Shown here in pieces: positions 9,269 to 37,485 of a stretch of 64,000 nucleotides of DNA (its first letter is position 1; each line of letters starts with the position of its first letter). The translations under genes were made by a program, and so were the position numbers. The notes beneath the pieces were generated by a model. That model saw nothing but the letters and a program-made list of their open reading frames with translations. It was not told the origin of the DNA and did not search any database. This stretch comes from Planctomycetaceae bacterium (GTDB taxonomy: Bacteria; Planctomycetota; Planctomycetia; Pirellulales; UBA7805). The stretch covers positions 1 through 64,000 of the forward strand of contig CACOUL010000004.1 of assembly GCA_902630355.1 (NCBI GenBank). Direction: 5' to 3'.

Positions 9269-9344
<76 letters not shown>

Positions 9345-32563: not shown

Positions 32564-33844
32564 ATGCCTAAAGGAAGTACGACGCGGTGGAACTTTCGCG
32601 TTCTGCTCGGACAGGGTATCTTACTTGACGTCAGTCAAACGCTTTCCAGCCCTCGGTTGGTACTGCCCTTTCTCTATATTTCGTTCGGTGCCCCAGCCAT
32701 CTTTGCCGGGCTATTGATCCCTATCGTGCAGCTTGCGCGAATGATCGGGCAAATCGTCTCAGCGCCCTTCATTTCGGCTGCCGAAATCTGCAAATGGTAT
32801 ATGAGCCTCGGCATTCTCACCGCAACAACTGCGCTGATCGTGGTCGCCTTAACCGCCGATACGGCTGAGGATGCAAAGCACTTTGTCGTTTTAACGGTGA
32901 TTTTTCTGAGTGTTGCCGCCATTATCGGTCTTGGCCAAGGCCTGAGCCGGCTGGCATTTCAAAACATGCTCGGCTACGTGGTACCGCGCAAACTTCGACG
33001 AAACTTACTCTTTTCCCAAACCGGGATCAGTGGGCTCTTGGCGATCATACTTGCGTGGGCAAGTCAGAAATTTTATTTAGGCGCGGCAGGCGAGGAAGCT
33101 GAAGAACATCTGGCACTCCTCTGGGCAGGCATTGCGGTAGCTGTCCTCTCGGGTTTTTTGAGTATGTTGGTCCGGGAATCTGCCGTTGCCGAAAAAAAAG
33201 TAAGGCCAGCAACCGGCAAAGAGAAAAAAAGCATCCTCGCCACACTTCGCGAGGGCATTAATCACGTGAAGCAAGTCGATTGGTTCCGGCAGTTTATCAT
33301 CGCTCGGATTCTCTTTCTTTCAATTGAATTAGCGATGCCGTTTTATGCGATTATCGCTGCGCAAGAGCACGAAAAAACAGAAGATGCCCTCGGTAGTTTT
33401 GTAATCGCAACCAGCCTGGGACTGATGATTGGGGGCTTTTTCTGGCAGCGATTGTCGCCCTGGCCGTTGAGGCGGATCATGGGTCTTGGCGGTATCATCG
33501 CTTTTGTTGCTGCAATGATCGCGTTATTCAGTCACGAGGTTGATCCGAGTGAAAGAAGCCTCTGGCTGTATTATGTCTTTTTTCTGATCGCACTCGCCGA
33601 TCAGGGAGTGGCTTCCACACGGAAAATTTATGTAGCCACCCTCGCGAGTGCGGAAACACGGCCTTACTATATTGCCGTGAGCGATACGCTGGTCGGTGCC
33701 GCGGCCGTTCTCTTTGCATTTTTTCTCGGGGCACTCGCCCACTTCCAGCATGCCCTGTGGCCCATCTTGGTGCTGGCTGGCCTCAATGCTCTGGCTGCCC
33801 TCTACGCGATGCGACTCAAACCGATTCCGGCGGACGCCGATTGA
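32564..33844 (+). CDS. MFS-type transporter
   Basis: The product is 426 residues with about 12 hydrophobic helices and the charged central loop (REGINHVKQVDWFRQF) usual for the major facilitator superfamily. I see no strong subfamily motif; weak similarity to permeases with a YISFGAPAIFAG start does not fix a substrate. It closes the phosphate island on the right, but a link to phosphate is only positional. The next gene (carA) is convergent. Confidence 0.7.
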   Translation: MPKGSTTRWNFRVLLGQGILLDVSQTLSSPRLVLPFLYISFGAPAIFAGLLIPIVQLARMIGQIVSAPFISAAEICKWYMSLGILTATTALIVVALTADTAEDAKHFVVLTVIFLSVAAIIGLGQGLSRLAFQNMLGYVVPRKLRRNLLFSQTGISGLLAIILAWASQKFYLGAAGEEAEEHLALLWAGIAVAVLSGFLSMLVRESAVAEKKVRPATGKEKKSILATLREGINHVKQVDWFRQFIIARILFLSIELAMPFYAIIAAQEHEKTEDALGSFVIATSLGLMIGGFFWQRLSPWPLRRIMGLGGIIAFVAAMIALFSHEVDPSERSLWLYYVFFLIALADQGVASTRKIYVATLASAETRPYYIAVSDTLVGAAAVLFAFFLGALAHFQHALWPILVLAGLNALAALYAMRLKPIPADAD

Positions 33845-33903: not shown

Positions 33904-35025
33904 TTAGAGCAGCGAGGCAAAGCGATCAAAAAGATAGTCGCTATCGTGGGGTCCTGCCGAAGCTTCCGGATGATACTGAACGCTGAAGGCAGGCAATTCG
34001 CGATGCCGTACGCCCTCGATCGTTCCATCGTTGAGGTTCCGATGCGTCACCTCAAGTTCCCCGGGAAGACTCTCTTCGGAGACTGCGAAGCCGTGATTTT
34101 GTGATGTGATCTCGACGCGAGACGTCTCCAGATTTTGCACCGGCTGGTTGGCCCCGCGATGACCAAACTTGAGTTTGTAGGTTTCCGCCCCACACGCAAG
34201 CGAAAGGAGTTGGTGACCGAGACAAATCCCAAAAATCGGTTTCTCGCCCAATAAGTCACGTATCGTTTGTATCGACTGCGTTAACGGCTCCGGGTCGCCC
34301 GGCCCGTTGGAAAGAAAAATACCGTCTGGTTTTTCCGCAAGAATCTCCTCCTTGGAGGCAGACCCCGGCAGCACCGTGACCCGAAACCCTCGACTCGCCA
34401 GATGTCGGGGAATATTCCATTTCATTCCAAAGTCCAGTGCCACAATATGTCCGTTCGAATCGCTGGCTGTATCCTCAGACCCGGGAAGCGTCGACCACTC
34501 ACTCAACACCTGATCCCAGCGGACTGCCTCGGTCGGCATCACTTCCTGCACCAGATCGCGACCCACCAGTCCCGGGCTCGCCTGGGCTTTGGCTACCAGG
34601 CTTTCGTTATCCAGGTCGACTGTGGAGAGCACGCCCTTCATTGCGCCTTCGCGACGGATCCGACGGACCAACGCGCGGGTGTCGATTCCTTCGATCGCGA
34701 CAACACCCCATTTTTCCAGATAGGTGGGAAGATCTTCGCTCGCTCTAAAATTGCTGTAGATCAAACTGTTCTCGCGAACGATGAAACCGGAGAGATGGGG
34801 TTTTGCACTCTCTCGATCTTCCTCATTCACACCATAATTACCGATCAACGGATACGTCATGGTAACGATCTGACCGCGGTAACTCGGATCGGTTAAAATT
34901 TCCTGATAACCGGTCATGGAGGTATTAAAGCAGACCTCTCCGTCAACTTCCCCCTCAGCTCCGAAACTGCTGCCTTCAAAAACGGTCCCGTCTTCGAGCG
35001 CGAGTTTGGCTTTCCGGCTGTCCAC
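33904..35025 (-). CDS. carA: Carbamoyl-phosphate synthase small (glutaminase) subunit
   Basis: GTG 35025, preceded by GAAGAGGGGG, gives 373 residues; a TTG at 35079 would add an untypical tail. The N-terminal half carries [33 protein letters not shown], and the C-terminal class I amidotransferase domain carries [25 protein letters not shown] with the catalytic Cys, HRGANQPV and [12 protein letters not shown] with the catalytic His. It releases ammonia from glutamine for the large subunit CarB in arginine and pyrimidine synthesis. carB is not in the window. Confidence 0.96.
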
Positions 35026-35223
35026 TACAGCAACCCCCTCTTCGTGTATTGTTTTGCTCTTGTCCGCCCTACGCGGCAACTCTGAGTACCGTCTGTGAGC
35101 AATGTCAAACCGTACGGCTTATACCGCAATTAGATGCCCTTTTTTCCTCTTTTATGCAATTTTATCCTCGGCTATCCGCAGCGAGTTAAGTTCTAGCACC
35201 GATAGCACCGATAGGAGTGTTAC

Positions 35224-35312
35224 GGCTGTGGGTCTCCGAATTTCCAACCGTTGGTATTTCGGACAGCCAATTGGAGAGTTCCTGTCCCGGCGAGCAGGAA
35301 CTCTCTTTTTTT
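35224..35312 (+). ncRNA. Candidate structured small RNA ending at a strong terminator
   Basis: On the plus strand a nested stem forms: GGCTGT (35224-35229) with ACAGCC (35263-35268), CCGAA (35236-35240) with TTCGG (35258-35262), and CCAA with TTGG at the tip. Five bases later comes the terminator hairpin at 35274-35312. No gene on the plus strand precedes it for over a kilobase. The 5' end and promoter are not clear. Confidence 0.45.
35274..35312 (+). terminator. Strong intrinsic terminator on the plus strand without an upstream gene
   Basis: GAGAGTTCCTG (35274-35284) pairs perfectly with CAGGAACTCTC (35295-35305) and is followed by seven T (35306-35312). Both flanking genes run on the minus strand. 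Confidence 0.9.
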
Positions 35313-35401
35313 ATAGCCTCAGCGCCAGCGACGGGCATAAAACCGGGCCCAGTATACGACCTCTGAACCACATTCCTAGACCCTTCGTCGCTTCTGAGCC
35401 A

Positions 35402-36895
35402 TTATCCGGCTCGCAAACCTCGATCGACTTGATCTTGGTCTCGCAAATAAACGGCCAGGACCGACTCAAACATCTCTCCGCTGATTTTCCAGGCCGGGCT
35501 CTCGTCCGTATGGGCGTTGCCATGCTCGATCAGAAGACGGTACATGAACTTAAATAAATGACGGGGCACGCGTAGATCGCGAAAAGCTTTCACTAGACGC
35601 TCTTCGGTCATACCCTCCTCAAACCAGTTGGCCAGCAAAGGCGTTTCGCCCGCTTCTGCGCACGCCCGCAATCGGGAAGAAGCCACATCGTAGAGCGCCT
35701 CTCCGGTCCATTCCAAGGACGGGATCATGTTTTGCTTATCGAGCCTGGCCCGCTGGAAGAAATCGCGATCCTCACGGTCCAGAAATTCGGCCACCTCGAT
35801 CGGCAAGAGCAGTTTGAATCCGATCCCCGGATGCTTGAGCAATTTGTTATCCAGAAGAGGCCAGAGAAAAGCCTGCATCAGATCGGCTCGGCCGTTGATC
35901 AGATGGGGTTCGTCGATGCGGTCAACTAAAACAGCAATGCCCGTAAATCCCAACGATTGCAAAATCCCTTGTAATTTTCTTAGCAATTCGAAGCGGTCAT
36001 CGGTTCGATCTTTGTTGGGAAGTGGTTGGCCTTCCAATTCGGAAGGCGAAAAATCCAGTAGCAACTGCGCGAGGGCTCGCTTTTGGCTCGGAATGACCCG
36101 CAAATGCCGGGCGACTCCATACGCCCGCAAGAAACTTTTCCCCATACGATAAGCCCGAGGAAACAACCCAGCCACGATCGCAATGTAGGGCCAAGGGCTA
36201 TTGAGTGCGCTGAGACCTGATTGCCACCCCTGAGAAAAAATAATCGCAAGGACCACGATCGGTACCATGAAACAGAGAGCCAAATCCCATCGCCTCCACC
36301 AAGTGCGGAACCGCAACCGTCGTCGCAAACGATGCCAGCGACCTTTGAATGTTTCGGCGGTCGAGCGGTCGTAACAAGCAGCCAGGAGCAGGAGGTCTCT
36401 CGCTTGGTTGCGGTCCAGTGCCTTCAAATCGACCTCGACAGGAAATTCCTGTCGTGAAGTCACAGGGGATAAAATTCCATCGACCAATCGTGTGGTCCCG
36501 AGAGACAAAATGGCGTCGACATGATCCCATAGTTTCCACTCGCCGAGCACGCGATCGGGTTTCCGTCGCCTCGATGGCAGAGTTTCACAAAAGCGATCTA
36601 AAAAAGGATTGAAATCGACGTAATCGATCACAAAAACGCGATCTCGTGGATGCTTGAGGTTATGAAGAAGCAGGTGCTCCACCATTTGCAACCGCATCGC
36701 GGTTTTGCCCGAACCTTTTTCACCAAAGACGATGGACGTGGACGGATCTGAAGGGCTTCCGAAGATTTTTTCCCACGCAGGGTGGAACGTGTCTCGAAGG
36801 CAATGCTCCTTGAACACCCGATCGGTCTGCGCATCCTCTTCGACGAATGGATTCGTCGTGAGTGAGTGGTGGGACAGAAAACGCTGAATGTTCAT
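35402..36895 (-). CDS. Membrane-inserted P-loop ATPase (KAP-like)
   Basis: ATG 36895, after CAGGGGA, gives 497 residues. Walker A GEKGSGKT is at 58-65. Between it and a Walker B-like AVLVDRIDEPH (about 322-331) lie two hydrophobic helices (about 204-222 and 235-247). A P-loop domain interrupted by membrane helices is the layout of KAP-family NTPases, some of which act in phage exclusion or membrane complexes. The last 150 residues are helical and AAA-like. It starts 20 bases after the GYF/zinc-ribbon gene, so the two are probably co-expressed. The KAP link is from architecture, not a search. Confidence 0.6.
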   Translation of the reverse strand: MNIQRFLSHHSLTTNPFVEEDAQTDRVFKEHCLRDTFHPAWEKIFGSPSDPSTSIVFGEKGSGKTAMRLQMVEHLLLHNLKHPRDRVFVIDYVDFNPFLDRFCETLPSRRRKPDRVLGEWKLWDHVDAILSLGTTRLVDGILSPVTSRQEFPVEVDLKALDRNQARDLLLLAACYDRSTAETFKGRWHRLRRRLRFRTWWRRWDLALCFMVPIVVLAIIFSQGWQSGLSALNSPWPYIAIVAGLFPRAYRMGKSFLRAYGVARHLRVIPSQKRALAQLLLDFSPSELEGQPLPNKDRTDDRFELLRKLQGILQSLGFTGIAVLVDRIDEPHLINGRADLMQAFLWPLLDNKLLKHPGIGFKLLLPIEVAEFLDREDRDFFQRARLDKQNMIPSLEWTGEALYDVASSRLRACAEAGETPLLANWFEEGMTEERLVKAFRDLRVPRHLFKFMYRLLIEHGNAHTDESPAWKISGEMFESVLAVYLRDQDQVDRGLRAG

Positions 36896-36915
36896 GGCGA
36901 TCCCCTGAAGATGGA

Positions 36916-37485
36916 TCAATCCCCTGTCGTCTCTGATCCGAATTGTGGAAAACAGTCACCTGCCCGTTTCCAGTCACTCCACCCTTCGCGCCACACGAGA
37001 TGGTCGCGCTCAACCCGCCCCTCTGCAATCCAGGCTCGTATGACTTCCTCCTTGGCGGGACCGTACTGCTGCCCACCCGCCTCAAGACACACCCACCATA
37101 TGGTAGTCGCCGCGTCGACAGGCGGCTGATCCCTCGCTATTTCCGCAGTAGCATCCCCGCCGACATTGCCTGTGGACGAGGAAGCCGAGTCGAACTGCAT
37201 CGCCTCGGTCGGCCGCTCTCCCGCCGCTACATCGGTCGAAGGGGCACCGATCAGTGTGGCAACTTCGGCTGGCAAAACGTCATCGAGATCCTCCAGCGGA
37301 CTGGCCACCGGCAGAGCCGATTGTTCCGCCTGTGACTTTCCATGCAAATCCTTGCTACTCGGACGCGTCGAGGTGAGCGGTATCTGCATGCGCGCACTGC
37401 AGTGGGGACAGATACCCGTTTTACCCGCAAGAAAAGATTTCACATTCAGTTTGTGCCCCTGCGGACAATAAAAGCGAATCCCCAT
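36916..37485 (-). CDS. Zinc-ribbon and GYF_2 domain protein
   Basis: ATG 37485 with AAGGAAAG upstream gives 189 residues. The N-terminus has a ribbon-like FYCPQGHKL...GICPHCSARM with paired Cys. A flexible middle of about 75 residues follows. The C-terminal 50 residues match GYF_2 (WWVCLEAGGQQYGP, VIRAWIAEGRVERDHLVWREGWSDW), a domain common in planctomycetes that likely binds peptides. It probably acts as an adaptor, perhaps for the membrane ATPase encoded just downstream. Confidence 0.75.
   Translation of the reverse strand: MGIRFYCPQGHKLNVKSFLAGKTGICPHCSARMQIPLTSTRPSSKDLHGKSQAEQSALPVASPLEDLDDVLPAEVATLIGAPSTDVAAGERPTEAMQFDSASSSTGNVGGDATAEIARDQPPVDAATTIWWVCLEAGGQQYGPAKEEVIRAWIAEGRVERDHLVWREGWSDWKRAGDCFPQFGSETTGD

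Follow-up and report, generated by a model that had tools for sequence, protein, structure and literature searches.

A predicted small RNA gene beside carA, conserved among Planctomycetes and preceded by a putative sigma-28 promoter

Introduction

Divergent or cis-antisense RNAs of metabolic operons are complementary to the leader of the neighbouring gene. Closer in behaviour to the RNA described here, by analogy, appear to be the sigma-28-dependent small RNAs of Escherichia coli and Campylobacter. UhpU, MotR, FliX and FlgO of E. coli are derived from UTRs, are expressed under sigma-28 and have outputs beyond flagella that include metabolism and ribosomal genes (PMC10578931). In Campylobacter, the short RNAs CjNC1 and CjNC4 are reported to depend on sigma-28, have a predicted Hfq-independent action on flagellar mRNAs and are described as conserved within the thermophilic species (PMC4626219), whilst CJnc170/FlmR of Campylobacter jejuni is described as FliA-dependent and as adjusting flagellar output, a function that was tested there (PMC11187230). 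Among Planctomycetes, Rhodopirellula-1 is also a candidate structured RNA without an Rfam accession, listed as a probable cis-regulator whose status as an RNA is ambiguous and which is present in Proteobacteria too (Weinberg 2010, PMC2864571).

The RNA considered here lies in the window, the whole 64-kb stretch of planctomycete DNA that was analysed. In contrast to the E. coli RNAs it appears to have its own promoter and terminator and no same-strand parent mRNA, and in contrast to cis-antisense RNAs of metabolic operons it carries invariant letters and survives without its neighbour. It occurs in two planctomycete orders and beyond, unlike the distribution described for CjNC1 and CjNC4, and is possibly distinct from Rhodopirellula-1; the evidence for it is comparative, unlike that for FlmR. 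A search of the open literature surfaced no described planctomycete small RNA of such a kind.

Results

The locus and its fold

The plus strand of the window at 35274–35312 forms a perfect 11-bp stem followed by a T7 tract, with a nested hairpin directly 5′ of it. The original prediction had called this a textbook intrinsic terminator, and the 11-nt arms (35274–35284 and 35295–35305) are indeed 100% complementary, enclose the loop TCCCGGCGAG (35285–35294) and lead into seven T residues (35306–35312). The nested stems it had listed were likewise all located 5′ of the terminator: GGCTGT (35224–35229) with ACAGCC (35263–35268), CCGAA (35236–35240) with TTCGG (35258–35262), and CCAA (35244–35247) with TTGG (35251–35254). 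It had also placed the site more than 1 kb downstream of any plus-strand gene and between two minus-strand neighbours, and this holds: the nearest real plus-strand gene upstream, for an MFS transporter, ends at 33844, 1.38 kb away, and the minus strand carries carA, for the small subunit of carbamoyl-phosphate synthase (33904–35025; TIGR01368, 510 bits), on one side and an ATPase-like gene (35402–36919; sub-threshold AAA_22 match) on the other. The likely carA start is a GTG at about 35025, the longest frame beginning at 35079. Among 48 loci the ATPase-like gene adjoins the RNA in L001–L006 and L008 only. The sole tRNA found in the window is a tRNA-Pro (tgg) at 9269–9344.

Between 33500 and 37500 a consensus scan returned seven terminator-like sites against a shuffle mean of 4.2, a count that is not decisive alone, but the site at 35274–35312 is the best of them and far stronger than the others. 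The plus strand of 35195–35315 folds at −47.9 kcal/mol, compared with −31.65 ± 3.65 for shuffled sequences (z −4.45; 0 of 200 as low), and the minus strand of the same region also folds well (z −4.01), as hairpins would. Covariance model R2 matches 35221–35313 with 85 bits (E 2.2e-18) and, together with alignments of 30 and 45 sequences, defines a predicted plus-strand RNA of ~90 nt at roughly 35221–35312, with a putative 5′ end.

Rfam 15 contained no family that reached its gathering score at the place of the RNA in the window, the best chance match (5.3 bits) falling on the other strand and outside the RNA, and gave no match at E ≤ 1 in 12 related loci. The set searched presumably includes the 6S families, and no 6S RNA was matched in the window or in those 12 loci; the length measured from the conserved GGCTG ranges from 77 to 106 nt among copies.

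Conservation and covariation

The search pattern that yielded the copies in L116–L194 requires GGCTGTGGGTCTCC, CAGCC and CGGCGA, and a regular expression for similar strings was also used in collecting copies, so the invariance of those letters is partly due to selection; copies found by BLAST and by covariance-model matching provide less biased views. After duplicates, N-containing sequences and misses of the expression had been dropped, 112 distinct copies were kept from 90 early and 79 later loci, 111 of which entered the promoter alignment and 108 the weight matrix. The members of alignments A1 and A3 were chosen by hand.

The 5′ hairpin (35224–35268, plus strand) consists of a GGCTG/CAGCC stem, an internal loop in which TGGGTCT faces one nucleotide, a CCGA/TCGG stem and a variable tip, and its GGCTGTGGGTCT is near-invariant, some copies having been selected on that string. 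In the copies read, the 5′-side segment UGGGUCU (35229–35235 in the window) lies opposite a single A, U or G, and it too is near-invariant, columns 9–15 of A3 being invariant or more than 90% conserved. The segment CGGCGA of the terminator loop (35288–35293) is invariant in A1 and A3, and also formed part of the search pattern for L116–L194. A run of at least four T residues follows the terminator stem, on the plus strand, in 109 of the 112 copies. GCGC occurs no more than 3 nt after the T run in 67 of the 112 and is absent from the window; it lies outside the expected RNA. The spacing between the two invariant elements takes all three residues modulo 3 and stop codons occur in every frame; a short protein gene was ruled out by these stops and by length differences that are not multiples of three.

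The original prediction had proposed covariation analysis as a check and had staked itself on conservation of stems beyond the terminator. Those stems are conserved, and the covariation in A3 (45 sequences) is strong: across three helices 97.7% of cells pair, 155 cells are changed on both sides, and the covariation score of 0.531 compares with 0.223 for shuffled alignments (reached by 0 of 500) and with at most 0.191 when the alignment is slid. Most of the signal comes from the terminator stem, in which ten of the 11 pairs show changes on both sides. The GGCUG/CAGCC helix is almost fixed, four of its five pairs never varying; this is silent on pairing and points to a constraint on the letters themselves. 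In all, 18 columns of A3 are invariant.

Distribution

With a 111-nt query, BLAST detected the RNA in 70 of 196 genomes of the window's order at E ≤ 0.01; covariance model R1, built from 30 copies, detected it in 110 of the 196 at the same threshold, 106 of them at E 3.8e-10 or better. R1 gave no match among the listed genomes of family f7 of this order. Only one genome outside the order, G252, was convincing in the phylum samples (392 genomes each). In the order to which G252 belongs, model R2 found the RNA in ten of 59 genomes, all ten among the 13 of family f68, and two of the f68 copies are identical in sequence to contigs titled Sedimentisphaerales. These large model searches scored 10–21 candidates per genome under stricter filters, so that copies can be missed. 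As a control, unrelated stretches totalling 1.6 Mb from two genomes of the order scored no higher than 16.6 bits, whereas the window scores 85.

A scan of named species with a degenerate pattern yielded at least 118 stretches, and 78 of 80 among the matches listed look like family members. Named carriers include Blastopirellula marina DSM 3645 and Lacipirellula limnantheis, and at least 19 contigs titled Phycisphaerae, Phycisphaerales, Sedimentisphaerales or Tepidisphaeraceae carry the RNA. The comparison suggests an RNA much older and wider than the carA locus of the window. In one phylum sample the pattern occurred in 11 of 392 genomes, the occurrence in G305 being read as chance. Weak model matches outside the order (L054–L062) and L063 were set aside as chance too, conserved letters being missing where they were inspected, as were pattern matches outside the phylum, in contigs titled Dormibacterota (L115) and Arthrobacter (L160), which are without the terminator or promoter.

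A two-box promoter resembling the sigma-28 type

The original prediction had proposed a promoter search between 35080 and 35220. A scan for sigma-70 promoters found none in that region, and a two-box promoter came from comparison of the copies only. When upstream regions are aligned on CGATA they read TAAAGT-N16-CCGATA, with the 16-nt spacer fixed. In the window these correspond to a −35-like TTAAGT at 35186–35191 and a −10-like CCGATA at 35208–35213, both on the plus strand; columns −23 to −18 are informative across 109 upstream regions, and CGATR is present in 109 of 111 copies. The distance from the −10-like box to the start of the RNA varies, mostly between 13 and 17 nt, and with conserved, covarying stems and a promoter so placed in most copies, the claim of a small RNA now appears well founded. 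The tandem TAGCACCGA at 35194–35211 duplicates the CCGATA box at a distance of 9 nt in the window's genus.

The E. coli sigma-28 consensus is given as TAAAGTTT-n11-GCCGATAA (PMC2859248); the promoter of the RNA resembles it but has a spacer 2 nt longer. Similar boxes, with spacers of 15–17 nt, precede eight of the 13 flagellin loci L255–L267 (at most 2 of 60 shuffles reach each score); no such site was seen before the other five, nor before nearly all of L268–L283. The weight matrix, applied to 0.8 Mb each of G080 and G165, gave 30 and 40 strong sites, only one and five of them before a called gene. Only one G080 site has a called gene start no more than 250 nt away, and it lies upstream of fliS (PF02561, 1.2e-17); none of the five genes in G165 was assigned to flagella. 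Searching seven genomes for the exact promoter pattern was uninformative genome-wide, with one to three sites per genome in six of the seven and several in the reversed control as well.

A FliA/WhiG match at E ≤ 1e-20 is present in all 196 genomes of the order (187 above the curated cut-off), and many genomes have FliA without the RNA. Some carriers (such as G009, G043, G069, G073 and G144) have much weaker FliA matches, several of these assemblies being incomplete. FlgM and FlhA matches were each found in 16 of 16 genomes tested. In the window's own genome, FliA (266.6 bits) has FlgM ~1 kb downstream and an FlhA-like gene ~0.4 kb upstream; at G000:C7:20299-24761 (L284:6300-10762) a FliA/WhiG gene has FlgM downstream of it and, upstream, an FlhA-like gene with a broken match to FlhA (3–423, 470–678). 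The flagellin domain PF00669 was found in 11 of 17 hand-chosen genomes; it was not found in G000 or in the 99% complete relative G004, nor in G020, G021, G029 and G066, all six of which carry the RNA. A tie of the RNA to flagellin itself was dropped in view of these carriers, and so was the idea that they are non-flagellated, FlhA and FlgM being present. We infer that the promoter would be of the sigma-28 type, driven by FliA.

Arrangement with carA

The gene carA lies divergently beside the RNA in 46 of 48 loci, some of them from closely related genomes. In the named set, among the matches listed with at least 500 nt of flank, carA lies no more than 1 kb away in 39 of the 48 loci that have no Phycisphaerae-type title and in six of the 18 that have one; in the remaining 12 of those 18 it does not adjoin the RNA. 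The RNA thus persists without an adjoining carA, and is therefore not merely a carA leader. In L036, L125 and L128 (two titled Thermoguttaceae) a glutaminyl-tRNA-synthetase-like gene, named by eye, stands in carA's place; L139, L149 and L178 (two titled Phycisphaerae) have an adenylylsulfate-kinase-like neighbour, also named by eye, on the terminator side.

On the minus strand beyond the terminator, 50 of 74 carA-adjacent loci have a hexamer that agrees with TATAAT at five or six positions (29 perfect), compared with 15 of 74 for the plus strand, 17% of shuffles and eight of 35 other loci, the carA-adjacent list having been drawn by hand with a few Phycisphaerae-titled carA loci left among the others. 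The window's counterpart, TATACT at 35351–35356 on the minus strand, is a candidate −10 box for carA, the enrichment being confined to carA-adjacent loci. In some genomes, for instance at L018 and L146, where the carA match begins 50 and 38 nt before the conserved GGCTG and next to the −35 box of the RNA, there is little or no space between them for a carA promoter. These comparisons support the earlier proposal that the RNA is antisense to the far upstream leader of carA. Transcription of carA probably runs leftwards across the entire RNA gene, and the carA leader would then be the RNA's complement. The window has another block conserved within the genus at 35097–35127, between carA and the RNA, to which pieces of G005 and G002 are 90% and 87% identical; it contains TGTCAA and TTATAC and may be an additional promoter or leader element of carA.

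Discussion

The computational evidence establishes, at the level of comparative genomics, a conserved, structured plus-strand RNA gene with a predicted promoter and terminator of its own. With a predicted promoter and terminator of its own, no reading frame and a conserved fold, the locus shows the features of a stand-alone small RNA ended by a terminator. We infer, beyond the gene itself, its transcription, its sigma factor, action in trans, protein binding and an effect on carA.

Our proposal, which as a whole we consider rather probable, is of a stand-alone sigma-28 small RNA acting in trans through two loops, with a cis effect on carA. A promoter of the sigma-28 (FliA/WhiG) type at 35186–35213 would start a transcript of ~90 nt, ending at the intrinsic terminator at 35274–35312. 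Two hairpins would form in this RNA, one at the 5′ side whose internal loop is near-invariant and one in the terminator whose loop is invariant, and the RNA would work in trans through both loops. In Pirellulales there may be a second effect, in cis: the carA leader, started beyond the terminator, would be fully complementary to the RNA, and sigma-28 activity would then lower carbamoyl-phosphate synthesis through antisense pairing or polymerase collision.

For the trans partner we tentatively prefer a conserved protein, which seems somewhat likelier than base-pairing on two grounds: the paired GGCUG/CAGCC stretch varies as little as the loop does, and sequences complementary to the conserved words show no excess at gene starts or in flagellar loci. 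Complements of the conserved 7-mers showed no enrichment at 1043 gene starts (524 and 519 from 0.8 Mb each of G080 and G165), a sample of about one eighth of two genomes in which a crude frame caller was used and the 5′-most starts were taken, and complementary 8-mers showed no clear excess in flagellar loci. This absence weakens the case for base-pairing with many mRNAs; a few specific mRNA targets are quite possible, and pairing with such a small set is our second, less favoured choice for the partner.

The alternative that survives best, although we think it somewhat unlikely, is a trans-acting antisense RNA in which GGGUCUCC or CGGCGA masks the ribosome-binding sites of a small number of mRNAs. 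The complement of GGGUCUCC is GGAGACCC, in which a GGAG resembles a Shine-Dalgarno sequence; seeds are typically segments that are unpaired and invariant, and masking of mRNAs is common among small RNAs ended by terminators. The sigma-28 small RNAs of E. coli (PMC10578931) and Campylobacter (PMC4626219, PMC11187230) are reported to act on mRNAs. Set against masking are the missing enrichments at gene starts and in flagellar loci, and the fold, in which the CUCC and the GGCUG side are largely paired.

It is unlikely that the promoter belongs to a sigma factor other than FliA and resembles flagellar promoters by convergence. The spacer 2 nt longer than that of E. coli, the weaker −35 box in the f68 copies and the weak FliA matches of some carriers would fit such a factor, but flagellin and fliS genes of the same order share the boxes with similar spacers.

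A purely cis-acting antisense RNA of carA, with no function in trans, is very unlikely. The RNA is nested in the putative carA leader and the synteny is kept even in L052 and L389 of another order, yet an antisense RNA needs no fixed letters, against the 18 invariant columns of A3, and loci titled Phycisphaerae and Thermoguttaceae carry the RNA without an adjoining carA. Marginally more improbable is a functional RNA on the opposite strand, that is, a structured carA leader such as an attenuator or riboswitch, of which the plus-strand appearance would be the mirror image. The divergent carA in most loci, the stability of the minus-strand fold and the probable passage of carA transcription through the region agree with such a leader; however, the T run lies on the plus strand in nearly all copies, the promoter boxes are plus-oriented with fixed spacing, and copies exist where carA does not adjoin. 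That there is no RNA, and that the locus is a chance terminator or a DNA element, is scarcely credible given the covariation, the deep conservation and the promoter.

The stand-alone, FliA-driven small RNA that we favour could belong to a regulatory family predating the split of Pirellulales and Phycisphaerae, serving as an output of the FliA/FlgM switch through an RNA-binding partner, a wider reading that we regard as doubtful in its entirety. The loop letters, which hardly vary, suggest a partner that could be fished out with tagged RNA. A conserved single-locus RNA with named carriers would offer a handle on post-transcriptional control in Planctomycetes, and possibly on how the swarmer stage is linked to metabolism: if the proposal is true, an RNA inside the carA leader would couple the programme of the motile cell to the supply of pyrimidines and arginine.
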